Virus record (IMG/VR): IMGVR_UViG_3300048905_000027
Span: 1 to 34,337 of that record
DNA length: 34,337 nucleotides
Direction: 5' to 3' (one strand)
DNA from: a virus
In this document: piece after piece, positions 7,811 through 22,300 of the stretch
Numbering within the stretch: position 1 is the first letter of the stretch
Layout: every line of letters begins with the position of its first letter
The notes under the pieces: model-generated
Databases searched by the model: none
What the model saw: only the letters and a program-made list of their open reading frames with translations
Told to the model about the DNA's origin: nothing
Translations under genes and position numbers: made by a program

Positions 7811-8908
7811 CTATTGCGGCTGATATCCGATTCCTGCCACCGCCAGCTGCGCCGCATCCTTAATCTTCGCCACATTGGCCAAGGTGAGCAGCGATAGCTG
7901 GGCGGCGGTCATCACCTGTTGCGGCGTCTTCTGGCCGCCCTTCATGGCGATATTTCCGGTGACCGTTTTCGTGCCGGCGATCGTGCCGATGCGGATCCAG
8001 AACAGATCACCGTCGATCGGCGAAAGCACGCTGTTGCCGCTTACGGTCAGATCGCGGCCATTGCTCACGGTAATGCCGTTCTCCATGCCGTTGCCAACCA
8101 GCATGTTATTCGCGATCTTCACGCGGGTGTAGGGTAGCGATCCAACTTCATCACGCATGAAGATGCCCTGCGTACCGTTTCCGACGCCAGGCAGAAGCAC
8201 GTTGTTGGTGATGACGATATCGGTTGATGGCTTCGTGCTGCCGGCCGTCTGGAACTGGATCGCGTCGGGGTGATCGGTCGAAACGCGCTGAAAGTTGGTG
8301 AAAAAGTTCCTATCAATGCTGGCGCCAACAACCGCCGAAAAGTCGAAACCATCGGTGCGAACTTCGCGCACGTCGTTGCCGGATATGTTCACGTTGCTGA
8401 TGCCGAAGAACTGCGCTGCGCGGCCTAGCTGCTGAAAGCGGCTGTTCGTGACGGCGATATTCTTGCCGCCATTGAAGATCAGGCCGACCGCGTCGTTGCG
8501 CGCGTTGCCATCAAGCGAGCCATGCACATAGACATGATCGAAGCTTAGGTTGCTCGATCCTACGCCCATGGCGATCGTCTGCGAATTCACGTCGACGCCG
8601 GCCGGCACCGATCCACGGGAAAAATTGACCTGCCGGAAGGTCAAGCCTGACACAGAGGTCAGCTTCATATAGCCGATCGAGGCGCGGTGCGTCTGGTCGG
8701 CCGAAACGATGATTACCGGGCTGGAATAGACCTTGCTGCCCATCTTCAGGCTATAGCCGCCAGGCGCCAGCAATATCGTTTCGCCGCCCCGGGCATTCAT
8801 CAGGAGGGTGAGTAATCCGCTCGAGCTTGTGGCGGTCGATGCAGCCGATGCCGGCACGAAAGCAAAAAGCCCCAGCGCGATCGCCAGGGCCCGAACAAAT
8901 TTCATCAT
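7811..8908 (-). CDS. Secreted right-handed beta-helix protein (tail-spike-like)
   Basis: A 365-residue protein starting MMKFVRALAIALGLFAFVPASA, a clear Sec signal peptide with an ASA/AS cleavage site. From about residue 60 it shows stacked beta-helix turns of the pectate-lyase/tail-spike type: repeated N-x-(S/N) and I-x-N patterns such as KNIAVTNSRFQQL, SNVNISGNDVREV, TDIVITNNVLLPG and VKIANNMLVGNG. Such folds bind or cleave polysaccharide, but no catalytic set can be assigned. AGGAGG lies 7 nt before the first ATG. It is the distal gene of the late operon. A signal peptide is unusual for a virion spike, so it may act in the periplasm or outside the cell. Confidence 0.8.
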   Translation of the reverse strand: MMKFVRALAIALGLFAFVPASAASTATSSSGLLTLLMNARGGETILLAPGGYSLKMGSKVYSSPVIIVSADQTHRASIGYMKLTSVSGLTFRQVNFSRGSVPAGVDVNSQTIAMGVGSSNLSFDHVYVHGSLDGNARNDAVGLIFNGGKNIAVTNSRFQQLGRAAQFFGISNVNISGNDVREVRTDGFDFSAVVGASIDRNFFTNFQRVSTDHPDAIQFQTAGSTKPSTDIVITNNVLLPGVGNGTQGIFMRDEVGSLPYTRVKIANNMLVGNGMENGITVSNGRDLTVSGNSVLSPIDGDLFWIRIGTIAGTKTVTGNIAMKGGQKTPQQVMTAAQLSLLTLANVAKIKDAAQLAVAGIGYQPQ

Positions 8909-8922
8909 CGCGAAACCTCCTG

Positions 8923-10143
8923 TTATGAGCCGGTATAGCCCTGCGCGTTGACATAGACCGCGCCGGTCGTGGTGGCAGTCAGCGTCACGAATTCCATCAG
9001 CGTGTTGGCGGTGCCCTTAAGCGGCGGATCGAACGTGATCGCTTGGCCAGCGGTAAGGCCGCCGGTGCCGATCTTGCCGCGCCATAGGACCGTGCCGGCC
9101 GCGCCATCGCGGATCGCTATTTCGGTCGCAGTGCCGAGAGCGTCGGCATAAAGCTGCAGCGTCTTGAGATAGTTTCGCACGCCAGCGCCGGCGGCGGCCT
9201 TGATGGTGACTGCGGTCGTGGTGTTCGTGATGCCGCCGGAGGCTGCGGCATAGTTCCAAAAGTTGGCGCTCGGGGCGGATTGCACTGCGGTGCCGTTGAC
9301 GTCGCCGCGCGCGCGGTCCCAGGTGCTGCCGTTGAAAACGAAGGGATAGATCGTCAGGGCGCGGGTGTTACCGAGATCGCCTTCGCCGTTGATGCCAGCT
9401 GAAAGGCCGTTTGATTGCGCATCCGCAGGAGTGGCTGCGGTTCCATGAAGATAGACCCTGAGCAGGCCGCGGATGGTCGTTTGGAAGTCTGTCCGTTGGC
9501 CATCGCTGAACGTCGGAAGCACCGTGGCGTTATACTTGCCGCCGACCTTTACCGGGTTTCCGCTGTCCGCCGCTCCCGATGCAACAGCGCCCCCGACATA
9601 AGTCCCGCTCGTAGTGTCGCCCCTCACGCGGTCCCATGACGTGCCGTTGAACAGGTAATTACCGACGCCCATCATGGTCGCGGTCGAGCCGCTCGAAACG
9701 ATCGGCGCCGCAAGCGTGCCGTTTCCTTGTGCGTCAGCACCAGCGACGCCGCTTGTCTGCACAGTAATTAAGCTGCCCTTGGCGTTGACCGCCAGTTCCG
9801 CGCGCTGGCCATCGGTATACGTCGGCAAGGTCGCGTTATATTTCGCGCCGATCTTAACAGGATTTCCGCTATCGGTCGCGCCGCTGGCGACGTTGCCGGT
9901 CGCGGTCACCGCGCCGGAATTGACGACGACGCCGTTGGTCGTGCCTGGCGTCGTCTGGTCGATCTGAACAGTACCGCCGCCGGCGCCGACGATCACGCTG
10001 TTGTCGGTATTGAGCGGAATGATCGGCGTGGCCAGCACGTAATTGCCGGCAGCATCCTTTGCGACCGGCAAGGTGACCGGCGTGGCGGCAAATGATGCCG
10101 AGCTAAGCGCCAGGCATGCGATCGCTAGGAAACGGCGCATCAT
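8923..10143 (-). CDS. Secreted tail-fibre-like protein with internal duplication
   Basis: A 406-residue protein with a signal peptide (MMRRFLAIACLALSSASFA/AT). Two copies of a unit of about 92 residues follow, 85-176 and 187-281; each opens with VASGATDSGNPVK or VASGAADSGNPVK, passes through YTDGQR or FSDGQR, and ends in an F-N-G-x-x-W-D-R-x-R-G-D motif. The C-terminal 120 residues are a beta-rich domain (NYLKTLQLYADALGTATEIAI) of the kind found in phage structural proteins. It starts in an ATGA overlap with a GGAGG upstream. The repeats suggest an adhesive or receptor-binding fibre; the Sec signal again argues for export. The exported protein at 18204-19046 shows a shortened version of the same repeat. 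Confidence 0.75.
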   Translation of the reverse strand: MMRRFLAIACLALSSASFAATPVTLPVAKDAAGNYVLATPIIPLNTDNSVIVGAGGGTVQIDQTTPGTTNGVVVNSGAVTATGNVASGATDSGNPVKIGAKYNATLPTYTDGQRAELAVNAKGSLITVQTSGVAGADAQGNGTLAAPIVSSGSTATMMGVGNYLFNGTSWDRVRGDTTSGTYVGGAVASGAADSGNPVKVGGKYNATVLPTFSDGQRTDFQTTIRGLLRVYLHGTAATPADAQSNGLSAGINGEGDLGNTRALTIYPFVFNGSTWDRARGDVNGTAVQSAPSANFWNYAAASGGITNTTTAVTIKAAAGAGVRNYLKTLQLYADALGTATEIAIRDGAAGTVLWRGKIGTGGLTAGQAITFDPPLKGTANTLMEFVTLTATTTGAVYVNAQGYTGS

Positions 10144-10346
10144 TTCGTGGCTTCCTCCAAGGCTGCATCGAATTCGGCGTCGAGCGCATTGCCCTGCGCC
10201 TGGATCGCCGCCAGCTTGGCCTTCGCGTCGGCCAGTTCGGATGCGGACAGCACGCCCTTGGCGGCCGCGATGTTGGTGGTGATCTTGGCGATCAGATCGG
10301 ACACGAGCCCGATATCGTTCAAGATCTCGACGGCTGAAACGCCCAT
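10140..10346 (-). CDS. Small helical hypothetical protein
   Basis: A 68-residue protein from the ATG at 10346, placed 8 nt after GGGAGGG; an in-frame TTG two codons earlier is too close to that site. It is Ala-rich and helical (LIAKITTNIAAAKGVLSASELADAKAKLAAIQAQG), with no signal or membrane helix. It lies between the lipoprotein and the secreted fibre. Small helical proteins of this kind occur near phage lysis genes, but no function is known. Confidence 0.65.
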   Translation of the reverse strand: MGVSAVEILNDIGLVSDLIAKITTNIAAAKGVLSASELADAKAKLAAIQAQGNALDAEFDAALEEATK

Positions 10347-10348
10347 GG

Positions 10349-10720
10349 TCAATTCCCTCCCGACGTCGTTGTGATCAGCGTGATAGAATTGATGGTCAGG
10401 CTGAGAGACTCGAGCGTCGCCGATGCATCCTGGCCAGCGGCCACGAGCGCTCGAGCCTCATTGCGATAAGCACGCGCGGCGCGCATGGCGTCGGCCAATT
10501 GCTGCACCTGGCCCTCGCTGAGATGGCGGCTGCGCAGCGCAGCCGTTGCCGCCGCCTCCGCGCTATTATAAGCGAGTTCTGCCAGCGACAGCGCCGTCGT
10601 CGCGCGCAGTTCGACCTGGCCGGCAACGACAGCCACATTCGAGGCGGTGTTGGTAACATCGCCGGGCTCGCAAGATGCGAGCGCCAGCGCCGCTGCGGTG
10701 ATGATCAATGCATGTTTCAT
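10349..10720 (-). CDS. Phage lipoprotein in the lysis cassette
   Basis: A 123-residue protein with a lipoprotein signal: a hydrophobic stretch and lipobox LASC with Cys17 (MKHALIITAAALALASCEPG). The mature part is helical and Ala-rich (VVAGQVELRATTALSLAELAYN). Asp is absent at +2 (Glu-Pro follows the Cys), so outer-membrane sorting is likely. Its place next to holin and endopeptidase fits an outer-membrane spanin-like component, but it is larger and not proline-rich like Rz1-type o-spanins. Its ATG overlaps the stop of the putative holin gene (ATGA). Confidence 0.7.
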   Translation of the reverse strand: MKHALIITAAALALASCEPGDVTNTASNVAVVAGQVELRATTALSLAELAYNSAEAAATAALRSRHLSEGQVQQLADAMRAARAYRNEARALVAAGQDASATLESLSLTINSITLITTTSGGN

Positions 10721-11049
10721 TTCAAACCCTCGGCTTTGGCTTCGGATGAGGTCAGAACGGGCGTTGTGCCAGGACTGTTCGCAACCGCGATGACTTCCTT
10801 TTTCTTGCGGCGGGTGACGATCTGGCGCCAGATGCTGGTGCCGACCAGCACCAGCACGCCCAGCGCTGGCGCGAATTGCGTTGATTGCAGAAAGGCGACG
10901 ATCTGACCGACGTCACGCGTGCCGAGAACCGCCGTCAAAGCGGGCAGCACGCTTACGACGATCAGCGCATCGCGCAACAGCGCACCGCCCTGATCTTTTG
11001 TCGGGCTTTTTTCAACATAGCTCGGCGCCGGTTCTGTCTGATCGCTCAT
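10717..11049 (-). CDS. Putative holin
   Basis: A 110-residue protein with a charged N-terminus, two hydrophobic segments at about 27-43 (LIVVSVLPALTAVLG) and 52-72 (FLQSTQFAPALGVLVLVGTSIW), and a basic C-terminus starting RQIVTRRKKKE. Size, two membrane segments, charged tail and direct coupling (ATGA) to the endopeptidase gene match class II holins, which permeabilise the inner membrane to trigger lysis. Sequence family not recognised, so the call rests on topology and location. Confidence 0.65.
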   Translation of the reverse strand: MSDQTEPAPSYVEKSPTKDQGGALLRDALIVVSVLPALTAVLGTRDVGQIVAFLQSTQFAPALGVLVLVGTSIWRQIVTRRKKKEVIAVANSPGTTPVLTSSEAKAEGLK

Positions 11050-11510
11050 ACTGCCCCCTTTTTCATCGCTGCCAGTGAATTACCGAACGTCGCCTGGAAG
11101 TGCGGAAGGTCGACTATGCTGTGCCAATCTCCACCCCACTCGAGCCCGCATTCTTTTCCAAGCTGGCCGATCCGATGCCAGCGCCTGATCGCGGCAGGAC
11201 TGACGCTATCCCAATCGGCCGTCCCGTTGTCTTTCAGCGGAACGACGTCGAACGCCAGCCGCCAATTGTGCCAGCTGTCGCCGCCTTTGGCGTTGGTCAC
11301 CGTCTCGCCGCGCTTGTACTTCTGGCCGGTCAAGGGGTTCGTGAACAGCGTTCGCCCGAGCGAATAGAGCATGTTCTGATAGGCGATGCTCGCATAGGTC
11401 CGTGTGACCATCAGGCGGATGCCTTCGCCTGCAGCCGCCGCGATCAGCGCCTTTGCCATGGGCTGCACGCGGGGATCGAGATCATCGATCGATCGGCTGT
11501 TTTCGCTCAT
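11046..11510 (-). CDS. M15-family peptidoglycan endopeptidase (endolysin)
   Basis: A 154-residue protein of the VanY/CwlK M15 peptidase family. The first zinc motif is SWHNWRLAFD (His81 and Asp88), and the third zinc ligand is His137 in the segment WHSIVDLPHFQ, with Asp134 nearby. N-terminal residues about 10-55 carry the family's lid region (DPRVQPMAKALIAAAA, then MVTRTYASIAYQNMLYSLGR). It cleaves peptide stems, as do T5-type endolysins. There is no signal peptide, so release depends on the holin encoded next. Length is normal for the family (about 130-170). Confidence 0.9.
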   Translation of the reverse strand: MSENSRSIDDLDPRVQPMAKALIAAAAGEGIRLMVTRTYASIAYQNMLYSLGRTLFTNPLTGQKYKRGETVTNAKGGDSWHNWRLAFDVVPLKDNGTADWDSVSPAAIRRWHRIGQLGKECGLEWGGDWHSIVDLPHFQATFGNSLAAMKKGAV

Positions 11511-11544
11511 GGCGGCAATCTATATCAGCGAAAGCACCATTCCA

Positions 11545-11838
11545 CTAGATAGGCGGATCGCCCCGCCGATGCCGCGCAATCGCATCGCGCGCGACCTGTT
11601 CGTCGTGGCGCGCCTGCTTCGCCTCTTCAAGATATTCGATCAGAACGCGCATCGTGCCATCCAGCGCGCGCACCGTCGTCATCAGATCGAGGAAGATTTG
11701 TCGCTCCATGATCGTCATCGCGAGCACTTCGGCATCTCCCCTTGGCTTTTGCGGGGGTTTGCGGAGCGCAGACCAAAGGCCGATCAGGGCAGTGCCGATA
11801 GAAGCTCCAATCCAGTATGCCGGGTCAGTTGTATCCAT
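11545..11838 (-). CDS. Small membrane protein of the lysis region
   Basis: A 97-residue protein from the ATG at 11838 (MDTTDPAYWIGASIGTALIG); one N-terminal membrane helix at about residues 9-26 is followed by a helical charged tail (RQIFLDLMTTVRALDGTMRVLIEYLEEAKQARHDEQVARDAI). This topology resembles inner-membrane spanins (Rz-like), with a single N-terminal anchor and long periplasmic coiled coil. If so, the lipoprotein at 10349-10720 could be its outer partner, though they are not overlapping. A longer reading frame to 11913 has no support. It overlaps the upstream gene by 14 nt. Confidence 0.6.
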   Translation of the reverse strand: MDTTDPAYWIGASIGTALIGLWSALRKPPQKPRGDAEVLAMTIMERQIFLDLMTTVRALDGTMRVLIEYLEEAKQARHDEQVARDAIARHRRGDPPI

Positions 11839-12292
11839 GCACCTTTGCCTCGCGAGCATTATCGAACGCTGAGCGGGCGTCCTTCGCCGCGAAGAATAGC
11901 GCAAAGATATCAAAAGCTAAAAGACCGCCGTAGGAATAAACCGCATTTGAATTCCAAGGCAGCCGCAAAGCTCCGTAAAGCAGACCAAGCCAGAAGATTG
12001 TCGACAGCCACGCACCGAACGCGCGCAGCGTCGCCGATCCGCGTGGACGCGATCCGTTGATGATCAGGCAGCACGCGCGCACGAAGCCGATCGATGTCGC
12101 ATAGACGCCCCATTGCATCTGCGGCATGATCTGTTGAAGCGGCCCGTAAAATGGCCCGTCGAATATATGCCGCGGCACATCGGTGTTCAGAGCGTCAGTC
12201 CATGCATTGATGCCCCAACACAGTTGGACGGCGGTCATGATGAATTCAGGGTAACGCTCGCGGAAGGTGCGATAGAAGCGTGCAGTCAGCAT
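11825..12292 (-). CDS. Multi-pass membrane protein
   Basis: A 155-residue protein starting MLTARFYRTFRERYPEF. I chose the ATG at 12292 because GGAAGG stands 8 nt upstream and it begins just after the previous gene's stop; an in-frame ATG at 12319 would overlap it. Hydrophobic segments lie at about 20-32, 70-85, 100-118 and 125-140 (STIFWLGLLYGALRL, GGLLAFDIFALFFAA). It belongs to the lysis/tail-fibre interval. Similar small multi-pass proteins are found in phage lysis regions. Function unknown; could be an accessory holin. Confidence 0.65.
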   Translation of the reverse strand: MLTARFYRTFRERYPEFIMTAVQLCWGINAWTDALNTDVPRHIFDGPFYGPLQQIMPQMQWGVYATSIGFVRACCLIINGSRPRGSATLRAFGAWLSTIFWLGLLYGALRLPWNSNAVYSYGGLLAFDIFALFFAAKDARSAFDNAREAKVHGYN

Positions 12293-12297
12293 GTCGA

Positions 12298-13011
12298 TTA
12301 CCTTCCGACGACGCGCCATTCGAAACCGTCCAGGTTCTGAGACGATCCCGAGCTTTGGATTTGCACGCTAAAGCCGGTCGTACTTTTCGAGCCCCTGATT
12401 ACCTGCACCCAGCAATCGAAGACAAGGCCGGCGCTGGCGATCTGGGCCGTAAGCTGCACATGATAACTGGTTGTCGTCAACGGCACCTGAAAGGTGATCG
12501 GCACGACGGCTTCGGTCGTGGTGTGCGTGTCATAGACGCCCCATTGATCGACCAGGCCATCGGGATATTTGAGATAGTCGGCGCCGATCGTCGGCATGCC
12601 CTGCTTTTCCCAATTGGCGCCGCCGGCATCGGGATTGGTCGTGTTGTTCTCGACGGTATTGTACCAAAACAGCCGCGCATTGCCTGGCGTCGACGATCGC
12701 ACGCATGCGCCAGCCGGATAGCCGCCGATCGCGATCGAATAAGGCGCGTCCCAGAGCACCTGGCCGCCCACCGCGTGCCAGCGGTCCCATGCGGTGATCT
12801 GGTTTAAAATACCATTCATATCCTTGATATCGGGCGGGACGCCGCCCGAGGACCTGGGCGTGGCCGTGAGCGGCGGAAAGCCATCGGTCAGCGATGCAGC
12901 ACCATCGGTAATGCCGATCTGCGAGAGAACGGGAACCGATCGCTTGTATGAACTGCTCGCGGCGTTCGCGAACGGGATCGTCATTTTGCCTGGTGCGTCG
13001 CTAGATTGCAT
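12298..13011 (-). CDS. Tail fibre protein with gp53-like C-terminus
   Basis: A 237-residue protein. The N-terminal half carries the common phage tail-fibre opening (IPFANAASSSYKRSVPVLSQ, then DMNGILNQITAWDRWHAVGG), which in other phages follows baseplate genes. The C-terminal half has YPDGLVDQWGVYDT and a beta-rich ending, matching the gp53-like receptor-binding domain of small tail fibres. No signal peptide, unlike the other fibre-like proteins here, so this is the best candidate for the conventional virion fibre. Start at 13011 has GGGACGGG upstream. It follows the DUF2612 protein as expected. Confidence 0.85.
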   Translation of the reverse strand: MQSSDAPGKMTIPFANAASSSYKRSVPVLSQIGITDGAASLTDGFPPLTATPRSSGGVPPDIKDMNGILNQITAWDRWHAVGGQVLWDAPYSIAIGGYPAGACVRSSTPGNARLFWYNTVENNTTNPDAGGANWEKQGMPTIGADYLKYPDGLVDQWGVYDTHTTTEAVVPITFQVPLTTTSYHVQLTAQIASAGLVFDCWVQVIRGSKSTTGFSVQIQSSGSSQNLDGFEWRVVGR

Positions 13012-13021
13012 AATCCCGTCC

Positions 13022-13660
13022 CTAATCCACGATGGTCAATGTAACGCCTACCGGTTTCGGCAGGATACCGCTCTGCTCGACAACCGACCGCTCGATCGCG
13101 CTTAGTGGCGTCGAGAAGGTATAGGTCATCGTCATATCGAGCCCATCGGTTGCATAGACGTTCCCGTGGCCCGGAAAAAGATTGATCAGGATCTGATTGA
13201 TCGAAGGGATCGAACTATCGGAGATATTGGCCAGCGCCTTGGCGAATAGCAGCCGCCGAAAGGCCGTATCCGAAAGCGCGAAATTGTTCGTGAGAAGATC
13301 GCCCGAATAGAACGGGTTGATATCGAAACCTTCCGCCTCGGTCTGCTCGACATATCCGAAGAAATCAGTCGCGCTCACTTGAATGACGCGCTGCACGCCG
13401 ATGATCTTTCCCCAGATATCGAGGCCATAGCCCTGCGCTGTGTCGATATTCCAGATGAGATTGAAAAAGAGCTCCATATCGGCGTTGGCGTTTAGATAGT
13501 CCGCCATGTTTTCAATGAGGCCGACAAGGATATCGCTGTTCGCATATTGGCTGATGACGGTCGCGAACCAATCGAATTGGTTGCTGGCGGTGGGCTGGAC
13601 TGCCTGCGCCTTGCCGGCCTCGCCAAGTGCAAGCCGGCCGAGTGCGTCGAACCCCTGCAT
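13022..13660 (-). CDS. DUF2612-family baseplate/fibre-connecting protein
   Basis: A 212-residue protein recognised by the segments FFNLIWNIDTAQGYGLDIWG, FRRLLFAKALANISDSSIPS and SGILPKPVGVTL, which are hallmarks of DUF2612 proteins. These are encoded between baseplate J and tail fibre in many contractile-tailed phages and are thought to attach the fibre to the wedge, similar to gpI of P2. The length matches the family (about 200-220). It lies 4 nt after baseplate J and 10 nt before the tail fibre gene. Confidence 0.85.
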   Translation of the reverse strand: MQGFDALGRLALGEAGKAQAVQPTASNQFDWFATVISQYANSDILVGLIENMADYLNANADMELFFNLIWNIDTAQGYGLDIWGKIIGVQRVIQVSATDFFGYVEQTEAEGFDINPFYSGDLLTNNFALSDTAFRRLLFAKALANISDSSIPSINQILINLFPGHGNVYATDGLDMTMTYTFSTPLSAIERSVVEQSGILPKPVGVTLTIVD

Positions 13661-13664
13661 GAGC

Positions 13665-15089
13665 CTAGACCAGCGTTACGCTGATATTGTCAGCGGCGAT
13701 CGTCGGGATCTGATCGATATGCGCGGTCAAGTCATTGAGCGTCGGTAGCACAGCCTTGATAGAACCGCTGGCGAAGGTCTGCGATTTGCTCACGGCATAG
13801 GTTCCGATGCCACCCGTGCCCGATCCGAGCGCGGTGATGACAGTCCCGTCCAGGATACCGCTTCCGGTCAAGGTCTGGCCTACCGCAAGCGTGCCGCTCG
13901 CGACGGACGTTACCGTCATGACCGTGGCTGAGATCGAGGCGGTAACCGACGCCGCGGGCGCGTTGGGCGATCCGATCAGGATGCTGACAATCCGCGCCCA
14001 GCCGCCCAGCGACGCGATGCCGGCATAGAAGCGGCTGGCAAATACGGTCGATCCGATCGCTGCGGCATCTCCGCCATCCTCGCCCGCGAACGCCGCAATG
14101 ATCGCATTCTGAATTTGGGTGGATGCATCGGCCGGCACCGTGGCACTGTTGAAGATCTGCACCGCGAAGATCACCGGCAATGATGCGGCGGTCTGGAAAG
14201 TGACATTGTAGCTCGGATATGGCGTCTGATATCCGCTGTTAGTATCCTGCACCGCCACGGTCGTGTTGCCGGTATAGCCGCAGCCTGGGCTTTTTTTCGA
14301 CCATATGGCCTTGGCGACGTCCGCCGGCACGCCGCCAGCCACGGCGACATAGAGCGAGCGCGCGGCGATCGAGATTCCGCCCACGGTGACCGGCGAGGCG
14401 GTCGGGTTTTCGGTCACATAGGCATCCAGCACGCCGTCGACATTAAGTACGGCCGCCCGGACCGCCGGCAGCGTGCCGGCCGAATTGAGTGCCACCGATG
14501 CCGCCCGCCGGATCTCGAATGCATCCCGGCTTTCGACGTCGCGGCCGACCGCGCCATCGGTGCTGTTCGTGATAGCATCCCAGCCCGGCACAGTGCGGTA
14601 GATCGCATTGAGCGTGCCCGCCGGGCAAATGATGGGCCCAGGCACGACGCATGCGAATTGTACATCGACCGTGCCGCTTGATCCGATCGAAGCGGCGGCA
14701 AGGCTCGAGTAAATATTGCCGTCCGCGGCGAGCGCAAGCGATCCGGCCGGGATCGCCGTGCCGGTCAGGCCAGTGAGCGTGGCCGTGACGACGGTCGACT
14801 CTGCCGGGTTTCGATCCAGGAAGTAGATCCGGCCGATCGCATCCTGCATGCGACCCGAAGCAAAGTCGGGATTGGTCTGGTTGCTGTAGTAGAGCAGGAG
14901 ATCGTTATAGGCGCCGATGATCGCGGTGAGCGACGAAACCAGCTGCCCCTGGGGCGTGTCGAGCGCCTCGTTAAGATTGCCGCCGAACGCCGCCTGGAAA
15001 TCTGCCCAGACGCCGGCCATGATATCGGCTTCAGATGGCGCAACGAACCCCTGCGGACCTAGCGAGGGAACGGGGACATTCGTGCTCAT
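13665..15089 (-). CDS. Baseplate J-like protein with inserted beta module
   Basis: A 474-residue wedge protein of the baseplate J/gp47 family. N-terminal features include [20 protein letters not shown] and a [20 protein letters not shown] motif, followed by the [15 protein letters not shown] segment; the core runs on through [19 protein letters not shown] and the [13 protein letters not shown] strands. It forms the baseplate wedge that triggers sheath contraction. Residues 382-446 are an extra domain ([20 protein letters not shown]) also present in the sheath protein, inserted shortly before the C-terminus. GGGAGGG precedes the ATG. A run of seven A in the coding strand near the middle is in frame and unremarkable. 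Confidence 0.9.
13752..13946 (-). repeat. Beta module shared with the tail sheath (copy in baseplate J)
   Basis: It encodes residues 382-446 of baseplate J. The segment [20 protein letters not shown] followed by [20 protein letters not shown] aligns almost position by position with residues 157-221 of the sheath protein. It is a domain-scale duplication, not an exact nucleotide repeat. Confidence 0.75.
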
Positions 15090-15106
15090 CAGCCCTCCCT
15101 ATCATC

Positions 15107-15508
15107 TTAATGTCGGCTTGTGGAATCCGCCTTGGTGACCGGCATGCCGACGCCTTCCGCATCCAGGAGTTTCTTGCCGTGGCGCACGAACGGCGCATTG
15201 AGCCTGATCGCGCGACCGCGCTCTTTCAGCGATCGCTGATAGTCCACCCGGCAATCATAGACGCGGCAGACGAAAGGCTTGTTTTGCGAGTGGTGCAATT
15301 TGCAGCCGCCGGCCTCAAGATAGGTGCAGTTGCCATCCTTGCCTTTGCGCACGGCCAGGCGGCCGTTCACCATCTGGGTGCGCAGAAAGGTGGGATTGTC
15401 CTGCTCCGTCAAAAAGATCGTATCGCTATGGCAGCAAAGCGTGCAGCCAGCGCAATTAAGCGGTGGCAGGTGATCGGCGTTCCAGTTCTCGGGCCGGTCT
15501 ACTGGCAT
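15107..15508 (-). CDS. CxxCxxCC (YkgJ-like) metal-cluster protein
   Basis: A 133-residue protein with the exact CxxCxxCC signature (CAGCTLCC) near its N-terminus, followed by GNCTYLEAGGCKLHHSQNKP and FVCRVYDCR. This is the putative zinc- or iron-chelating family (PF03692 type) to which YkgJ and the flagellin lysine methylase FliB belong. The start is the ATG at 15508 (AGGA upstream, 10-nt overlap with the previous gene); an ATG at 15532 has no ribosome site. It sits between a Sec-exported beta-helix protein and baseplate J, an unusual place for a likely enzyme; a role in modifying or maturing a tail protein is a guess. Confidence 0.85.
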   Translation of the reverse strand: MPVDRPENWNADHLPPLNCAGCTLCCHSDTIFLTEQDNPTFLRTQMVNGRLAVRKGKDGNCTYLEAGGCKLHHSQNKPFVCRVYDCRVDYQRSLKERGRAIRLNAPFVRHGKKLLDAEGVGMPVTKADSTSRH

Positions 15509-17187
15509 GATGCTGAATTCCTGATCGTCCATCCAGACGGAGTACCGATGCCGCCCGCGCCGAGCGTGCAGATATTGTCGGCGAAATAGCCATTGGTGAA
15601 AACGCCGCTTGATAGAATGGCGCCCGCCTTATCGGACAGGTTGTTTTCGGTCAGATTTACGTTGTCGGCGCCCTGGCTCAAATTAAGCGCATTATAGACG
15701 TTTGCCTGCGCTCCGCCGTTGAAAGTGATGTGCGTGTAGATCGCATTCGTGATCGGCGAACATGGCGTGCAGGACTGGAAAATCCCTTGCTGTGTAACGT
15801 GATCGGTGGCCGTGATATAGGCCATGATGTGATTATAGACCGCCGGCAGATTGGTCATCTGATTGAAATCAGGGTGAGCACCGCAGCAATAAACGACGTT
15901 CCGAACGGTTGCATTCAACACGACGAAAGCATTCTGGAAACTATCGGCGTTGATGCCGTCGACCGTATAGTTGCGGCCGAGCGCGATCTTGTTTTGAGCG
16001 TTGAAGATGCTGCCGATAGACGCATCGGTCCAATATGTGCCGCCCTTGAATGGACCGCCGATGACATTGATCGGATAATCGCATGCGGTCGTTCCCGCAC
16101 CGCTGCCGCCGGTGCCGCAGGTGGCCGATGCGATCCAATCCGTGTTGTCGATCCAGATGGCATTATTGTTCGAAGTGGCGCTCGCATTGACCATGTGCGG
16201 GCCAGCGATCGTCAAGTTCCTGAAATGCGTATATTGAACATAGGCGCCTCTATTGTCGCCCCAGCTGTTGATGATCGTGTTCGCCTTGGCAGCCCCCGGG
16301 CAGGCAGTAATCGTCCACCAGCCGGTTGAGACCGTCTTATAGGTCGTTACCGTGTTCGGGTTGAGATTCCACTTGCCCTCCTGCAGGCAGACTTCCTGAT
16401 TTTGAAAGTTCGACGTGATCTTGTCGCGGGCGCCGATGACGGTGGCGCAGGGGTGCGCGCTATCGAGGCAGCTGTTGCTATCGCTGACAACGACGCCGGT
16501 CCCGCCTACCCAATAGCGCGTCGGGCTATAATTCGCGGTCAGGAAAAGCGAAAAGCGGCCCTTGGCGGTGCTGTTCTGGTAAAGATTCTCAATGCCGTCA
16601 TCTGGCCCCTGCAACACGACCGGCTGGCCATTGGTCGGAATTCCAGTAGCGCGGAGCTCGGTAAATTGATTGGTGCCATAGGATCCTTGCGCGAGATCGA
16701 CGCAATATTCCGGAACGGTGCCGTTCGTTCGATTATTGGTCGTTTGGGTCGTGACGTCGACCGCCGTTCCATTGTCAGCCTGAAACGTCACCTTGGTCAT
16801 GGCGTTCTTGATGCCGATCGCATATTCGGCCGCGTTCGGCTTGTGCCAGGCATAGACGCAAACCCGGTTATCGGTGGCCGTCACGCCCTGCCGCGGCACC
16901 ATATCCCACTGCATGATGACTTCGGTGTTATCGCCACTGCCGACAACGCCTGGCACCGTCGTCGGGCCCCATGATCCAACGGTTGCCGATCCGGGCGTGA
17001 GCACTGGCACGCCGGGCGTTGGCGTAGGGGTAGGCGTCGGCGTGGGCGTAGGCGTCGTATCGGGCTGGCCGAACGACTGGATGATGCCGCCATGATAGCC
17101 AGGAAGGTGCGGGCTGGCCGCTGCGGCCGTATTGATCAACGCGACTGCACTGATGCCGCATAGGAGGGAGATCGCCCTTTTTCTCAT
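15499..17187 (-). CDS. Secreted beta-helix protein with Thr-Pro linker (tail-spike-like)
   Basis: A 562-residue protein: signal peptide at 1-24 (MRKRAISLLCGISAVALINT, cleavage AAA/S), then SPHLPGYHGGIIQSFG, a Thr-Pro repeat linker at 45-58, a beta-sandwich-like domain (about 65-225), and a C-terminal right-handed beta-helix (about 230-562) with turns such as GAYVQYTHFRNLTIAGPH, NYTVDGINADSFQNAFVV and NLTENNLSDKAGAIL. This architecture fits a polysaccharide-binding or -cleaving spike. The PGY motif after cleavage is shared with the next exported gene. Cysteine pairs (CLDSAHPC, CCGAHPD, CTPC) are numerous, consistent with an oxidising compartment outside the cytoplasm. Confidence 0.75.
   Translation of the reverse strand: MRKRAISLLCGISAVALINTAAAASPHLPGYHGGIIQSFGQPDTTPTPTPTPTPTPTPGVPVLTPGSATVGSWGPTTVPGVVGSGDNTEVIMQWDMVPRQGVTATDNRVCVYAWHKPNAAEYAIGIKNAMTKVTFQADNGTAVDVTTQTTNNRTNGTVPEYCVDLAQGSYGTNQFTELRATGIPTNGQPVVLQGPDDGIENLYQNSTAKGRFSLFLTANYSPTRYWVGGTGVVVSDSNSCLDSAHPCATVIGARDKITSNFQNQEVCLQEGKWNLNPNTVTTYKTVSTGWWTITACPGAAKANTIINSWGDNRGAYVQYTHFRNLTIAGPHMVNASATSNNNAIWIDNTDWIASATCGTGGSGAGTTACDYPINVIGGPFKGGTYWTDASIGSIFNAQNKIALGRNYTVDGINADSFQNAFVVLNATVRNVVYCCGAHPDFNQMTNLPAVYNHIMAYITATDHVTQQGIFQSCTPCSPITNAIYTHITFNGGAQANVYNALNLSQGADNVNLTENNLSDKAGAILSSGVFTNGYFADNICTLGAGGIGTPSGWTIRNSASCQ
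17014..17055. repeat. Hexanucleotide tandem repeat encoding a Thr-Pro linker
   Basis: About seven copies of a GGCGTN unit on the plus strand (GGCGTC, GGCGTG, GGCGTA, with one GGGGTA) encode (TP)7 in the beta-helix protein. Such arrays can change length by slippage. A matching array lies at 19109-19147 in the same orientation. Confidence 0.85.
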
Positions 17188-17188
17188 C

Positions 17189-18199
17189 TCAATAAGTCCA
17201 TGCTATGCAGATCGCGCCGTCGCCGCCGATACCTGCCCCATTACTTCCGAGCGCCGATGTTGAACCGCCGCCGGCGCCACCGCCGCCTTGGCCGCCATTG
17301 CCCGGAATGTCGCCGGCATCGGATGCACCGCCGCCACCGCCAGAGCCCATCGTGCCGCCGCACAGTGATGTATCGGTTCCACCATCGCCGCCGTCGCCCT
17401 CGGATACGGCCGAGCCTTGCGTGCCGCCGCCGCCGCCGCCGCCGTTAATACCGTTGGTTGCCGCCGATACGCCGTTGACCGATCCCGCACCCGCACCGGC
17501 TCCAGCATTGTTCAAGCCGCCATTGGCACCGGCCGTATCCGAGGTTGCGGTACCGCCAGCCGTGCTCGATCCGCCATTCGATCCGCCGCCGCCGGATCCC
17601 GAGCGGAACGCTGTCGCGCCATTGCCGCCAGCCTTACCGGTGCCGCTGATGCCGGCCGCGCCACCGCCGCCGCCACCGCCGCGGTTGCCGGTTCCGGTCG
17701 AGCCGGTGCCGCCTGCGCCTCCGCTCGAGCATGTGCCGGTCGATCCCGTGCCAGCTGCGCCAGCCGTGACCGTGGCAGCGTTGCCGCCGGCGCCAGCCTG
17801 GACGATCGTCGCATTGGTCGTATCCTTCAGGAAGGTAGCCAGGCTGCTGCCGCCCGTCCCGATCTGGATGGTAAGCGTGCCGCCGGCGACGAAACCGGAA
17901 AAGCCGGTCGTGGCCTGGCAGAAAGCCCCGCCGCCGCCGCCTGCGCCCGAACGGGTATTCGCAACGCCAGCTGCGCCATTGCCGCCGGCGCCGAGCGCAT
18001 AGACGCCGGTTACGCTGGTGAACGTGGCCGGGATCGGGATTGATGTCGCCGTGGGACCGAATACGTCATAATGCAGCGTTGCCACGCTGCGCGTGCCGAA
18101 ATTCATCACGCCGGCGCGATAGCCCGGCATGGGCGGGTTGGCGTTGACTGCGGTGCCGACCAGGGCGGCGAGAGCCGCAAAAAAGCGCAGGCGCTTCAT
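17189..18199 (-). CDS. Secreted glycine-rich adhesin-like protein
   Basis: A 336-residue protein with a signal peptide (MKRLRFFAALAALVGTAVNA/NP) followed by NPPMPGYRAGVMNFGT. A short beta segment (about 40-80) precedes a long glycine-rich region (about 80-330) of GG-x-GG and NGGGGGGG runs, ending ICIAWTY. Comparable Gly-rich domains in phage adhesins (T4-like S16 gp38 and the glycine-rich tail fibre tips) pack as polyglycine II helices and carry receptor loops. The glycine-rich domain also occurs in the neck fusion at 29460-31436. The long plus-strand Pro-rich ORF opposite is an artefact of GGN codons. Confidence 0.8.
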   Translation of the reverse strand: MKRLRFFAALAALVGTAVNANPPMPGYRAGVMNFGTRSVATLHYDVFGPTATSIPIPATFTSVTGVYALGAGGNGAAGVANTRSGAGGGGGAFCQATTGFSGFVAGGTLTIQIGTGGSSLATFLKDTTNATIVQAGAGGNAATVTAGAAGTGSTGTCSSGGAGGTGSTGTGNRGGGGGGGAAGISGTGKAGGNGATAFRSGSGGGGSNGGSSTAGGTATSDTAGANGGLNNAGAGAGAGSVNGVSAATNGINGGGGGGGTQGSAVSEGDGGDGGTDTSLCGGTMGSGGGGGASDAGDIPGNGGQGGGGAGGGSTSALGSNGAGIGGDGAICIAWTY

Positions 18200-18203
18200 G
18201 CGC

Positions 18204-19046
18204 TTAAATCTTGGTTTTCTGGATGCAGGTGATCACGCCGGCCGCGCCGTAGGCATAGATCGTATTGGTTTGCGGAACGGGAAAAGGATAGTTCACGCCG
18301 CCCGTGTCGAATTCGAGATCGGCGGCATGTGCGCCGGTGCCAACCGTGGCCGATGCGAGCGCACTATCGCCGGATAGGCTGATGCCGACGCCGCCGGTCG
18401 TGAAATAGATTTCCTGCGAGATGATATTGGCCGTGGCTGGGCAGATCGACGCAACCGTATTGGTCGCAAGCAACGTCTTGGTGATCTTGCAGCCATTGGT
18501 GCCGCTCGAATCACATGCGCCGGTGCGCGGACTGTCGAGCACGCCACCGGTGCTGGTGGAAAGCAAGCGCGCATTCGTGCCATCGGTGCCCGCCATCATA
18601 TTGCCGAGCGTGCCGGCTGCGCTTCCAGCCGTGACAACCGCACCATTGCTTACGCGCAACCGGCCATCGGTCTGGCAGCTTAGGAAATTGTTTTGCGCGG
18701 TCGTATAGGACGGAGTGGACGTGGTGACCGCGCAAAGGCCGAGCATGCCATTGCTGCCCGACGTGGTGCTGCCCCCGGCCTTGGTGAGCGACGTCAGCGC
18801 AGTGTCGAGATTGAGCGCATGCAGGTTGATCGTGTTTGCGCCAGGCGTCGCGCTGGCCGCGCCGAGCACTTCGGCGCCGGTCGAATCAATGATCACGTTC
18901 TTGTCGGATTGCACGCCGGCGCCGAGATCTTTCGACGCCTTGGCAATCGTGGTGCCGGTCGCATCCTTCACCAGGAAATTGTCCGCCGCGTAGGCAGGCG
19001 AAAGCGCGAGCAACGCCAGCGCGAAAGCAATTATCTTGGCGTTCAT
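18204..19046 (-). CDS. Secreted beta-rich tail-fibre-like protein
   Basis: A 280-residue protein with a clean signal peptide MNAKIIAFALALLALSPAYA/AD. I chose the ATG at 19046 because AAGGGG lies 7 nt upstream and it gives the signal peptide directly; an ATGA overlap start at 19064 would add six residues (MTKGLT) in front. The mature part is beta-rich and low in charge, with a LSCQTDGRLRVSNG segment resembling the DGQR/GLLRV unit of the exported fibre at 8923-10143. The C-terminus reads TNTIYAYGAAGVITCIQKTK. It is the third exported protein in a row behind the gp25-like gene. Confidence 0.7.
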   Translation of the reverse strand: MNAKIIAFALALLALSPAYAADNFLVKDATGTTIAKASKDLGAGVQSDKNVIIDSTGAEVLGAASATPGANTINLHALNLDTALTSLTKAGGSTTSGSNGMLGLCAVTTSTPSYTTAQNNFLSCQTDGRLRVSNGAVVTAGSAAGTLGNMMAGTDGTNARLLSTSTGGVLDSPRTGACDSSGTNGCKITKTLLATNTVASICPATANIISQEIYFTTGGVGISLSGDSALASATVGTGAHAADLEFDTGGVNYPFPVPQTNTIYAYGAAGVITCIQKTKI

Positions 19047-19060
19047 GGTAAGCCCCTTCG

Positions 19061-19549
19061 TCATATCAGCGGGTTTCCTGGGATCGAGAAATCAAGGATG
19101 CCGACGCTCGGCGTAGGCGTGGGAGTAGGCGTTGGCGTCGGCGTGGGCGAAATCGCCGGATTGGTCGACCGCGCGAGCGGATCCGGTTGCGGGTTGAGCG
19201 GAATGATCACGGTCTCGCCGCTGCTCAATTTGACCTGGACTTGGCCGCCCACTTCGCGATCGCGGCCGACGAAAGTCAGGAAAACTTGCGCACTCACCAC
19301 ATTCGGCACGCGCAGCGCCGCGGCAACCAGCTGGGCTTTGAGCAGCTGGATCGGCTGGGACTTGCCCAGGATCTGATCAAAATAGCGGATGCCCAGCGTG
19401 GTATCGTAATAGAGCTCGCCCATGAACAGGCGGCAAGCCGATGCGACGTCCTGCAAAGCGGCGTAAGGCTCGCTTGCCATCGCGATGTTTCCCGCAACGT
19501 CGAGTGCGAGATCCCAGTCCGTTCGATCGAGCAAGAGCGTGTCCGGCAT
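19061..19549 (-). CDS. gp25-like baseplate wedge protein with Thr-Pro tail
   Basis: A 162-residue protein. The first about 115 residues match gp25/GpW-type baseplate proteins of contractile phages: LLLDRTDWDLALDVAGNIAM, PYAALQDVASACRLFMGELY, YYDTTLGIRYFDQILGK and AALRVPNVVSAQVFL. It bridges wedge and sheath initiation. The family normally ends soon after the last strand; here a linker (LNPQPDPLARSTNPAIS), 13 residues of alternating Pro-Thr and SVGILDFSIPGNPLI are added. The gene is the first minus-strand gene left of the embedded plus-strand cassette. The start at 19549 has a weak ribosome site. Confidence 0.85.
   Translation of the reverse strand: MPDTLLLDRTDWDLALDVAGNIAMASEPYAALQDVASACRLFMGELYYDTTLGIRYFDQILGKSQPIQLLKAQLVAAALRVPNVVSAQVFLTFVGRDREVGGQVQVKLSSGETVIIPLNPQPDPLARSTNPAISPTPTPTPTPTPTPSVGILDFSIPGNPLI
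19109..19147. repeat. Second hexanucleotide repeat encoding a Pro-Thr linker
   Basis: The same GGCGTN-type hexamer array as at 17014-17055, in the same orientation, encoding PTPTPTPTPTPTP near the C-terminus of the gp25-like protein. The two arrays lie about 2.1 kb apart and flank the two exported-protein genes 17189-18199 and 18204-19046. Confidence 0.85.
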
Positions 19550-19614: not shown

Positions 19615-19664
19615 GACCGATGACATCACCGGCGAATGTGCCGACCTGATCGAGGGAGAACGAA

Positions 19665-19886
19665 ATGCGCGGCTATCATCTCATTATTCACGAAGCGACG
19701 GGCGTTACCGACGTGGCCGATCTGGATGAGATCGAAGACACGATGCGGCACGCGGTGTTTCATTCCACCTTGGATTGGCAGACGCGCGAGCAGCTGCATC
19801 AAGGCGCGCGCGAGGCGTGGGAGGTCGTGCAGATCATGCGCGATCCTGCGGCGATGGCTGCGGCCCTCGGCATGGGTGCCGAATAA
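19665..19886 (+). CDS. Small hypothetical protein, first gene of the embedded early cassette
   Basis: A 73-residue protein with a strong ribosome site (GAGGGAGAA, 19653-19661) before the ATG. It is acidic and helical (DVADLDEIEDTMRHAVFHST, REAWEVVQIMRDPAAMAAAL). No family recognised. It lies about 50 bp behind the -10 of the shared early promoter element and overlaps the next start by one base (TAATG). Confidence 0.7.
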   Translation: MRGYHLIIHEATGVTDVADLDEIEDTMRHAVFHSTLDWQTREQLHQGAREAWEVVQIMRDPAAMAAALGMGAE

Positions 19887-20131
19887 TGGGGAAACCCATC
19901 ACTCTGGCGAACTGTTCGCTTAACGAGTTTCCGAAGGTTATGCGCCGCGGCTTGCACCCGACGCGCGAGCGCAGCGCGCTGATCTTCGCCGCAGGCGCGC
20001 TCAATAATTGTAAACTCTTGAAGGATCTCGGATCGCAGGAGCGATCGACTTTCTATGACGGAATGGTCGCGGCAGGCCATCTCGAAGAAAATCCCTATTG
20101 GCCGCGACACAGCAAAAATGGAACCGATTGA
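19886..20131 (+). CDS. Small hypothetical protein
   Basis: An 81-residue protein from the ATG at 19886. Mixed composition with two Cys (LANCSLNEF, LNNCKLLKDL) and a helical LHPTRERSALIFAAGALNN stretch. No recognisable motif. Its stop TGA overlaps the following ATG by one base. A longer upstream frame has no ribosome site. Confidence 0.6.
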   Translation: MGKPITLANCSLNEFPKVMRRGLHPTRERSALIFAAGALNNCKLLKDLGSQERSTFYDGMVAAGHLEENPYWPRHSKNGTD

Positions 20132-20217
20132 TGGACGAAATTATCCATGTTGCCCCAGCATTGATCGGCATCGCCATTGTCGTGCTGGGCTCGCTTATCG
20201 CGAGGCTCAACCAATGA
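20131..20217 (+). CDS. 28-residue single-helix membrane microprotein
   Basis: An ORF of 28 codons reading MDEIIHVAPALIGIAIVVLG followed by SLIARLNQ. It is essentially one membrane helix with an acidic head and a short basic tail. It starts on the last base of the previous stop (TGATG) and ends in an ATGA, fitting the coupled pattern of the cassette, which is the main reason to believe it is translated. The ATG in that ATGA opens only a 12-codon frame; the next clear gene starts at 20245. Confidence 0.55.
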   Translation: MDEIIHVAPALIGIAIVVLGSLIARLNQ

Positions 20218-20244
20218 GCGATATCAACCTGAAGGAAGCCTGCA

Positions 20245-20550
20245 ATGGGTGAAGCCGCCGAAATGATGCTGGACGGCACCTGCTGTTCGTCTTGCGGCGA
20301 ATATCTAGGCGGGAACGAAGGCTATCCGGTGCAATGCGCATCATGCCGCCACGATGACAAATATGCGCCGCGCGTGCCTCGGTTCAACCGCTATGCCATC
20401 AAGGATGCACCGAAGCCGCCGCCGACCGGCGATAAGCTGATCGTCAACGGCAAGATGGCCTGCCCCTATTGCGCCAAGCGCGTGAAGGTCATCGGCATGG
20501 GAGACCATCTGCTCACGCGCCATCGCGACAAACTGGAAGCGACGCCATGA
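20245..20550 (+). CDS. Double zinc-finger protein
   Basis: A 101-residue protein (AAGGAAG upstream). The first site has CCSSCGEYLGG followed by CASCRHDD (two Cys pairs, zinc ribbon type); the second is CPYCAKRVKVIGMGDHLLTRH, a C2H2-like finger near the C-terminus. It resembles the C-terminal finger of the protein at 5768-6208 (CPCCNRSFVKLAQHMATKH), suggesting that the two early blocks carry related fingers. Likely nucleic-acid binding. Confidence 0.75.
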   Translation: MGEAAEMMLDGTCCSSCGEYLGGNEGYPVQCASCRHDDKYAPRVPRFNRYAIKDAPKPPPTGDKLIVNGKMACPYCAKRVKVIGMGDHLLTRHRDKLEATP

Positions 20551-20726
20551 CAGCCGCTGAATTCAAATCGATCCGCCAGCGCCTCGGGCTTTCGACGCGC
20601 CAGCTGGCCGATCGGCTGGGATTGGAGAGCAGCCGCACGATCCAGCGGATCGAGGCCGGCGAAGCGCAGCCGACGCGCATCATGGAACTGGCTATGTGGG
20701 CGCTTGCGGAAGGAGTCGCGCGGTGA
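20547..20726 (+). CDS. Second XRE-family helix-turn-helix regulator
   Basis: A 59-residue protein from the ATG of an ATGA overlap. LGLSTRQLADRLGLESSRTI then QRIEAGEAQPTRIME is a clear XRE helix-turn-helix covering most of the protein. It is the same length as the leftward regulator at 367-546 but differs in sequence, as CI/Cro pairs do, although the two genes lie 20 kb apart. It may act on the shared promoter element or on host genes. Confidence 0.8.
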   Translation: MTAAEFKSIRQRLGLSTRQLADRLGLESSRTIQRIEAGEAQPTRIMELAMWALAEGVAR

Positions 20727-20923
20727 AGGAATATCACGCTAATATATTCATGGCGTTCTTAGGCGTGCTCGCCGGCTGCGCGCTTTCAATGAAGATCGAC
20801 ATTGACCGCATAGCCGAAACCGATGCCGCAAATCTTGAGCTCCATCGACAAGTGGCATGCGTGTCGTGGAAGTCGCAGCATCTGACGAACCTGCCAGACT
20901 TTTGCGCGAAACTGGTCAAATGA
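20723..20923 (+). CDS. Small membrane-anchored or lipoprotein-like protein
   Basis: A 66-residue protein from the GTG at 20723 (GTGA overlap). The N-terminus KEYHANIFMAFLGVLAGCALS has one hydrophobic segment ending in LAGC, which fits a lipobox, followed by a short helical tail with two more Cys. It may be a lipoprotein or a single-pass anchor; N-terminal charge is low for a classical lipoprotein signal. Function unknown. Confidence 0.6.
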   Translation: MKEYHANIFMAFLGVLAGCALSMKIDIDRIAETDAANLELHRQVACVSWKSQHLTNLPDFCAKLVK

Positions 20924-21138
20924 GCCGGCCGCTCACACATCGCACGATCACGCGCGTGGCGACGAAGCGGACGCCCTATGGCACGATCCTGCCCGATGGG
21001 GTGGCCAAGCGGCCGGCCCAGGCCCGGCATGAATTCCATTACGAGCGCGGCGAGGAAATGGTCGTTTGCGTGAACGGCGAGATCATGAGCACCGAAGGCA
21101 TGGTCAAGGTGCGCAAAGGAAAGGTCGATAAGCAATGA
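20920..21138 (+). CDS. Small basic hypothetical protein
   Basis: A 72-residue basic protein from the ATGA at 20920. It is beta-rich (TITRVATKRTPYGTILP, EMVVCVNGEIMSTEGMVKVR) and ends KGKVDKQ. No family recognised; a small nucleic-acid-binding barrel is possible from composition. Coupled on both sides. Confidence 0.6.
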   Translation: MSRPLTHRTITRVATKRTPYGTILPDGVAKRPAQARHEFHYERGEEMVVCVNGEIMSTEGMVKVRKGKVDKQ

Positions 21139-21449
21139 TCAAGACTATCGCCCGCATGATCCGCCGCTTTCGCATGCGCCGCACGTGGCGCGTCGTTCAA
21201 CGCTGGCACAATCGCTGCCTGGTGAACGATCAGGAGGTCGGACAAATTCACATTGTCGGCGAGGAGAACGGATTCGGCGATCGCCGCGTGCGGATCCTGT
21301 CGCAGCCCTACAGCCCTGATAAGTATGGCTGGACGGGAGGCGGCGCCTGGGCCCGGGCAATGGAGTGGGTAGGCGAACCGCAGCTGGCTGGCGAAGTCCT
21401 GGCCAATCTCAAAAAGGCGAAAATCTATGCAAAACCGCCCCATCGTTGA
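21135..21449 (+). CDS. Basic hypothetical protein
   Basis: A 104-residue protein (ATGA at 21135) with a very basic N-terminus (MIRRFRMRRTWRVVQRWHNR), a beta segment (VGQIHIVGEENGFGDRRVRI) and a helical C-terminal half (WARAMEWVGEPQLAGEVLAN). No recognisable motif. It overlaps the next ORF by 23 nt. Confidence 0.6.
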   Translation: MIKTIARMIRRFRMRRTWRVVQRWHNRCLVNDQEVGQIHIVGEENGFGDRRVRILSQPYSPDKYGWTGGGAWARAMEWVGEPQLAGEVLANLKKAKIYAKPPHR

Positions 21450-21624
21450 CGATGGCATGCGCTGCACGCGCAAAGGCATCCATGGAACCCCTGAAATTTG
21501 GCCCTGCGGGCACCCGAGGAGCGCAGAGAACGTCGCGCCGGTAGGTGAGGGCGCCGGAACGCGCTGTCGGCGCTGTCGTGCCCGGATTCGGCGCGAGAGC
21601 TATAGGAGAACGCGCCGTGGCTGA
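21427..21624 (+). CDS. Small Cys-rich protein
   Basis: A 65-residue protein with Cys13, a WPCGH motif and CRRCRARIRR near the C-terminus, compatible with a four-ligand zinc site. The N-terminus lies in the 3' end of the previous gene. Its basic tail (RARIRRESYRRTRRG) fits nucleic-acid binding. Its stop lies inside the start of the next gene. Less certain than its neighbours because the ribosome site is weak. Confidence 0.5.
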   Translation: MQNRPIVDDGMRCTRKGIHGTPEIWPCGHPRSAENVAPVGEGAGTRCRRCRARIRRESYRRTRRG

Positions 21625-22300
21625 TATCGGCCTCCTCTTTTCGGCGCCAATGGTTCGCGCGCTGATCGACGGGCGAAAGACGCAAACGCGGCGCGCGCTC
21701 AATCCGCAGCCGTTTCCGGTCGGTGGCCCGTTCTATCGCCCCTATCCAGTTGCCGATCCTAACTATTGGTACAGCATCAGCCGCCGCGGTCTCGTCTGCA
21801 ATATCCAGAAGGTTCGCTATGCGCCCGGCGATCGCCTCTACGTGCGCGAAGAATGGTCGACGCACCCGGCCTTCGATGGCATCGCGCCGCGCGATCTCAA
21901 GCGCGGGAGCATGATCTATACTCGCGCCGATCATACTTGGCACAATGCCGAAGATTGGATCGGTGCGCCATTTGGTCGCCGCCGGGCCGGCATGCATATG
22001 CCGCGCTGGGCTTCGCGCCTCACGCTTATGGTGACGGACGTGCGCGTTCAGCGATTGCAGGAATGCACTGAGGAAGATGCGATCGCCGAAGGCTGCGTTT
22101 GGGATGATGACAAGGCTGGCTTTTGGGTGCCCGGCGTTGAGCATCATATTAAGAATTTCCCCTATCTCGCCCGCGCGACCGCGCGCGAAATGTATGCCGC
22201 CCTATGGGATACGATCAACGGGTCGGGCGAATGGCTGAAAAACCCCTGGATCGTGGCCATCACCTTCACGGTCGAGAAGCGCAACATCGACCAGATCTAG
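21617..22300 (+). CDS. Conserved phage protein with ASCH/PUA-like features
   Basis: A 227-residue protein from the GTG at 21617 (AGGAGAA upstream). It carries the signatures of a widespread phage family: LLFSAPMVRALIDGRKTQTR, YAPGDRLYVREEW, MPRWASRLTLMVTDVRVQRL, EEDAIAEG and a C-terminal WDTINGSGEWLKNPWIVAIT. The order of strands resembles ASCH/PUA-like RNA- or nucleotide-binding domains; family members are usually annotated hypothetical or morphogenetic. It is the last gene of the embedded cassette, and its TAG shares the CTAG palindrome with the stop of the opposing spike gene. Confidence 0.8.
   Translation: MADIGLLFSAPMVRALIDGRKTQTRRALNPQPFPVGGPFYRPYPVADPNYWYSISRRGLVCNIQKVRYAPGDRLYVREEWSTHPAFDGIAPRDLKRGSMIYTRADHTWHNAEDWIGAPFGRRRAGMHMPRWASRLTLMVTDVRVQRLQECTEEDAIAEGCVWDDDKAGFWVPGVEHHIKNFPYLARATAREMYAALWDTINGSGEWLKNPWIVAITFTVEKRNIDQI

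Follow-up and report, generated by a model that had tools for sequence, protein, structure and literature searches.

Five late genes of the 34,337-base IMG/VR virus record analysed here (the window) begin with classical Sec signal peptides, and sequence comparison places them in a recurring class found in dozens of relatives, mostly phages of soil and water Alphaproteobacteria, rather than marking them as a quirk of one contig. In the current view, tailed phages assemble their tail fibres entirely in the cytoplasm, and we know of no tail fibre that is exported from the cytoplasm before lysis. The best overall explanation, which we hold with about even confidence, is that the signal-bearing genes encode an exported class of late fibre, spike or glycan-active proteins, of which the fibres would dock at lysis and the enzymes of the SP1 type would stay free.

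The late genes of the window lie on the minus strand and correspond to a contractile-tailed phage (sheath, tape measure, hub, gp25-like wedge, baseplate J, f2-type fibre and M15 endolysin; Table 1). All five signal-bearing ORFs are present on that strand. The original prediction had them interleaved with baseplate and lysis genes, and this arrangement was confirmed: SP3, SP4 and SP5 are placed between the gp25-like gene and baseplate J, while SP1 and SP2 are located behind the lysis genes.

Table 1. Late genes of the window, with predicted signal sequences (arrow, cleavage site) and supporting matches.
Position	Strand	Feature	Signal and cleavage	Mature Cys	Evidence or remark
7811..8908	minus	SP1: signal peptide and single-domain right-handed beta-helix, lyase-like	MMKFVRALAIALGLFAFVPASA↓AS	0	last late-operon gene, behind lysis cassette
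8923..10143	minus	SP2: signal peptide and repeat-containing virion-type domain	MMRRFLAIACLALSSASFA↓AT	0	relatives signal-free
10349..10720	minus	small lipoprotein, spanin-like position	MKHALIITAAALALAS↓C		type-II signal
11046..11510	minus	endolysin, M15 peptidase, without signal peptide			PHROG_2649 4.7e-32; Peptidase_M15_4 2.7e-14
12298..13011	minus	f2-type tail fibre without signal peptide (internal comparator)			PHROG_12796 2.2e-34; Gp53-like_C 1.5e-7; N-terminus MQSSDAPGKM
13022..13660	minus	baseplate/structural protein adjoining J			PHROG_587 1e-61
13665..15089	minus	baseplate J-like protein, survey anchor			PHROG_6 1e-61
15499..17187	minus	SP3: signal peptide and Cys-rich body, possibly beta-helical	MRKRAISLLCGISAVALINTAAA↓AS	14	signal-peptide rule; even Cys count
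17189..18199	minus	SP4: signal peptide and Gly-rich body	MKRLRFFAALAALVGTAVNA↓NP	4	signal-peptide rule
18204..19046	minus	SP5: signal peptide and Cys-containing body	MNAKIIAFALALLALSPAYA↓AD	6	start 19046; ORF open to 19064
19061..19549	minus	gp25-like baseplate wedge protein			PHROG_120 1.9e-25

Each of the five signals has a short positive n-region, an uncharged hydrophobic core and an AxA-type site, the pattern of a classical Sec/signal-peptidase-I signal. By our own rule set, which underlies all signal counts given here, type-I signals occurred in 5 of the 28 late window genes, those five only, besides one lipoprotein signal (10349–10720). Shuffled N-termini of the same 28 genes gave a mean of 0.26 matches and a maximum of 2 (300 shuffles); the claim that the five genes begin with Sec signal peptides was thus borne out. 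In the same rule-based scan of the window, no signal was found in the endolysin, the f2 fibre or the Gly-rich neck protein at 29460. The longest ORF of SP5 extends beyond its listed start, and it is the start at 19046 that yields the signal. The mature start of SP4, NPPMPGYRAG, resembles that of SP3, ASPHLPGYHGG. The small lipoprotein had no PHROG or Pfam match above the cut-off.

Several other features of the window were observed. The tail operon is interrupted at 19636–22300 by approximately 2.7 kb with plausible genes on the plus strand, of which 21545–22300 matches PHROG_874 of unknown function (5e-57). Within the operon, a protein with a CxxCxxCC zinc/iron-chelating domain (PF03692, 5.5e-6) is encoded at 15107–15532, between SP3 and baseplate J. 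The neck protein at 29460–31436 combines an N-terminal Gly-rich stretch (Gly_rich_2 0.0003, below the cut-off) with a C-terminal neck terminator domain (PF23961, 1e-21). Baseplate J (residues ~377–447) and the tail sheath (27758–29458; residues ~152–221) match the same stretches of PHROGs 21413 and 38233, and one small domain seems to have been inserted in both proteins.

To place these genes in context, we surveyed the surroundings of baseplate J relatives at 125 loci in viral contigs and bacterial genomes, starting from the window protein; genes 1.2–8 kb from J were taken as downstream, and 86 loci had at least 5 kb on that side. Type-I signals were found in 51 of 385 genes downstream of J versus 2 of 517 upstream core tail genes (Fisher 1e-17), and 0.7% of shuffled N-termini were called as signals. 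At least one signal-bearing gene stood downstream of J in 38 loci. Most survey loci are uncultivated contigs, many of them incomplete, so that a signal-free fibre could lie outside the contig. Among the named hosts with signal-bearing genes are Bradyrhizobium oropedii, several Acetobacter species and a Rhizobiales MAG; most Achromobacter loci have no such genes. The class also reaches a different tail type, since siphovirus-like phages (L002/L003) encode a signal-bearing GTGATS-repeat protein directly behind the tail-tip gene. Among the other signal-bearing proteins, one in L044 has a Peptidase_S74 domain (6.5e-10) and those of L113 match tail and tail-spike PHROGs. In the phage phiAO1 of Acetobacter orleanensis NBRC 3170, the protein PhiAO1_380 has a signal peptide and is the counterpart of the tail-spike-like Acetobacter proteins. 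As a separate observation, the tail region of phiAO1 includes a CDS on the minus strand with the annotation catalase (L005:6183–8306); the main text of the phiAO1 paper makes no mention of SDS-PAGE or structural proteins.

Several of the surveyed loci are prophages in bacterial genomes, and bacteria also have exported beta-helix and S74 proteins. Both points are in keeping with lysogenic conversion, that is, with exported adhesins or enzymes that were acquired by prophages, are expressed from the prophage to alter the host surface and are parked in the tail region. We consider this improbable, because the genes run in the same direction inside the late operon, between the baseplate and lysis genes, and because the signal-bearing f2 gene described below is an ordinary fibre gene at its usual position.

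The relation between signal and mature protein is clearest in the fibre family f1. A signal peptide is present in 34 of its 35 distinct members, all ending at one mature start, A↓QSSPxLxYGQVPTAAQWNSYFAAKQDxLGYTPLN. The residue at position -1 is small in all 34 (A25/G4/S4/C1), that at -3 is mostly A (24) or V (4), and +1 is Q in 29. Mean identity is 72% over the first 26 mature residues versus 19% over the last 20 residues of the signal peptide. In L106, the only member lacking a signal, the protein starts where the mature form would begin (M-GNSPGWTFGYVPTAAEWN). Few Hyphomicrobiales genomes have the f1 start motif: it occurs in 3 of 397 in an order sample and in 3 of 392 in a family sample, some of these being partial matches. 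Separately, L167, L169 and L170 match f1 only in part, at positions 33/41/44–75, and a portion of its N-terminal region may exist as an independent module.

The family f2, to which the window fibre at 12298 belongs, corresponds to the Gp53-like/PHROG_12796 contractile-tail fibres, with the same families, bodies and position behind baseplate J and the PHROG_587 gene. These fibres are normally signal-free, and so are almost all of the approximately 100 f2 members; in contrast, a Sec/SPI signal has been added in five phages, in one of which (L157) it was called by eye and not by rule. In L118 and L143 the signal is placed before the retained old start Met, and PHROG_12796 aligns to the L118 protein from residue 25, just after its signal.

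Cysteine counts provided a line of evidence that is independent of the signal rule. Exported proteins of Proteobacteria tend to have even cysteine numbers owing to pairing into disulfides. Using one protein per similarity cluster, we compared mature signal-bearing proteins with signal-free proteins from the same loci. In the curated set, from which five signal-peptide matches were removed as spurious or non-fibre, in which two cleavage sites were corrected, and to which the window and SP1-family proteins were added, the signal-bearing proteins were 29 even and 6 odd, versus 79 even and 112 odd for the signal-free ones (Fisher p = 5e-6). The trend was the same without f1 (27 even, 4 odd), and the uncurated set agreed (33 even and 9 odd versus 229 even and 321 odd, p = 3e-6). 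SP1 and SP2 have no mature cysteine, and parity is therefore uninformative for these two. Cysteine content alone did not separate signal-bearing from signal-free downstream proteins (p = 0.34); only parity did. Even counts are an indirect mark of disulfide-bonded exported proteins.

These data also bear on whether the N-termini might be hydrophobic parts of the virion, for example a baseplate plug, on proteins that remain in the cytoplasm without export. Virion proteins are normally assembled in the cytoplasm, and hydrophobic N-termini can serve assembly. However, the f1 signal drifts beside a frozen mature start while its n-region, core and small -3/-1 residues persist, the same families also exist without the segment, and cysteine parity points to an oxidising compartment; we regard this reading as very improbable. 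Export and cleavage are, in contrast, highly probable, as the signal is conserved across relatives, follows the -3/-1 rule and drifts beside a frozen mature start, and as the cysteine counts are mostly even. The export proposed in the original prediction is supported by these sequence features, but nothing specific was found for its suggestions of decoys, superinfection exclusion or an anti-biofilm system.

We propose that, late in infection, the signal-bearing proteins would pass the host Sec system and be cleaved, and that they would fold and form disulfides in the periplasm while the virions assemble in the cytoplasm. Because of this cytoplasmic assembly, docking would have to be post-lysis, when periplasmic proteins and cytoplasmic virions would meet. 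Fibres with a conserved mature N-terminus would then dock on the finished tails, and simple enzymes such as the SP1 beta-helix would stay unattached and work on the glycans of the envelope or matrix surrounding the lysed cell. We suggest tentatively that exported fibres dock on virions in this manner, namely f1 and f2 and possibly SP2–SP5 of the window.

The main rival to docking is a free role, in which exported fibre homologues never become virion-bound but are released from the periplasm at lysis and mask receptors or bind debris against re-adsorption, or in which they exclude superinfecting phages. Most f1 phages, and the window, also have an f2 fibre without a signal, which can equip the virion, and SP1 has no docking domain. 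Since the window retains its signal-free fibre, its signal-bearing proteins need not be its receptor-binding proteins. Nevertheless, we judge the free role of fibres to be unlikely: the strong conservation of the f1 mature N-terminus is the pattern expected of a docking site, a decoy working only after lysis needs no export, and no signal-free fibre gene was found in the structural modules of G777 and G778. In these two contigs, both possibly incomplete, the only fibre-like genes from the head to the lysis genes are f1 and f2, each with a signal peptide. Should these phages lack any further fibre, the export signals would be on the receptor-binding proteins themselves. Thus the earlier proposal that fibres are added after export or lysis fits f1 and f2. 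G778 also encodes a further signal-bearing protein (MKKYWYSIMTAMLFAAPAFA↓) among its head and neck genes (L178:9793–10530).

It is accordingly conceivable, albeit somewhat short of an even chance, that in some tailed phages the receptor-binding fibres pass through the Sec system of the host and tail assembly is finished outside the cytoplasm at lysis. If true, a widespread class of fibres with signals would provide a second compartment for assembly, make disulfide-stabilised fibres possible and offer a simple means of stopping fibres from binding before lysis. This phage and its relatives may complete their armament, or clear the way for themselves, outside the cytoplasm. The finding flags a gene set that is now listed as hypothetical. 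Spanins, SAR endolysins and the coat proteins of filamentous phages are likewise phage proteins that use the host export route, but no tail fibre or tail spike of a tailed phage is among them. Searches of the open-access literature found no account of tail fibres with signal peptides, and "undescribed" is therefore provisional. The phage phiCbK and the Bcep22-like JC1 were considered as precedents and rejected, as the passages found place signal peptides there only on lysis proteins.

SP1 differs from the fibres in that it appears to be an enzyme. It matches Pfam Beta_helix (2.5e-7), and its AlphaFold2 model is a right-handed beta-helix (pLDDT 78.8, pTM 0.81). The best VIA structural match is the alginate lyase 6kfn (Z 28.2, 259 residues, rmsd 2.5), with AlgE epimerases, PL6 lyases and the biofilm lyase RbmB ranking close behind; no sequence match was found among solved structures. 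SP1 shares its fold with PL6/PL31 alginate lyases, AlgE-type beta-helix enzymes and RbmB (VIA Z 24–28), a likeness that lies in the fold of the model, while sequence identity to them is 9–17% and SP1 is phage-encoded behind lysis genes. The beta-helix cores of tailspike depolymerases (phi29 gp12, Dettilon gp208 and Klebsiella phage depolymerases) likewise match SP1 (Z about 24–25), and the fold alone is therefore not decisive. Unlike these tailspikes, SP1 has a signal peptide and a single beta-helix: its model contains no separate N-terminal docking or C-terminal trimerisation domain, as the mature part opens with the beta-helix and closes with short helices of low confidence.

The relatives of SP1 in L002/L003, L162 and L163 all have a signal peptide, and those in L002/L003 and L163 stand directly behind an Rz-like spanin gene; none was found in phage records. 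The predicted structure and this gene order suggest that SP1 is probably an exported, glycan-active enzyme linked to lysis, and we lean towards the view that it acts as a free, released factor. Of the possibilities in the original prediction, an exported glycan-active factor released at lysis fits SP1, with its bare lyase-like beta-helix and its signal-bearing, spanin-adjacent relatives. With proteins of the SP1 type, the lysis cassette of phages would also include exported enzymes active on glycans.

The bodies of the five proteins had been described beforehand as beta-helix, Gly-rich or fibre-repeat domains. This description holds for the beta-helix of SP1 and the Gly-rich SP4, and SP2 is related to phage proteins. 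The label "fibre-like" is unproven for SP3 and SP5, because neither has a relative in the viral contigs or phage records searched and the single-sequence AlphaFold2 model of mature SP3 was discarded (pLDDT 32). No recognised fibre or spike family in PHROG or Pfam matched SP2, SP3, SP4 or SP5. Pairwise BLASTP was not significant for SP4 and a Gly-rich signal-bearing protein of L031, for SP3 and a protein of L036, or for SP2 and SP5; short motifs common to these three pairs are leads only.

SP2 is 55–58% identical to signal-free proteins of L006–L009. Bodies homologous to SP2 and to the GTGATS fibres occur without a signal in other phages, namely the isolates Scott (a Sphingomonas phage; SPS_19, a relative of SP2) and HMO-2011 (gp43) and the complete record MW202701. 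These signal-free homologues suggest that the signal was added to protein bodies that tailed phages use. In MW202701, a plus-strand fibre-repeat gene (L182:3495–5642) is masked by a CDS on the minus strand with the annotation ribonuclease E.
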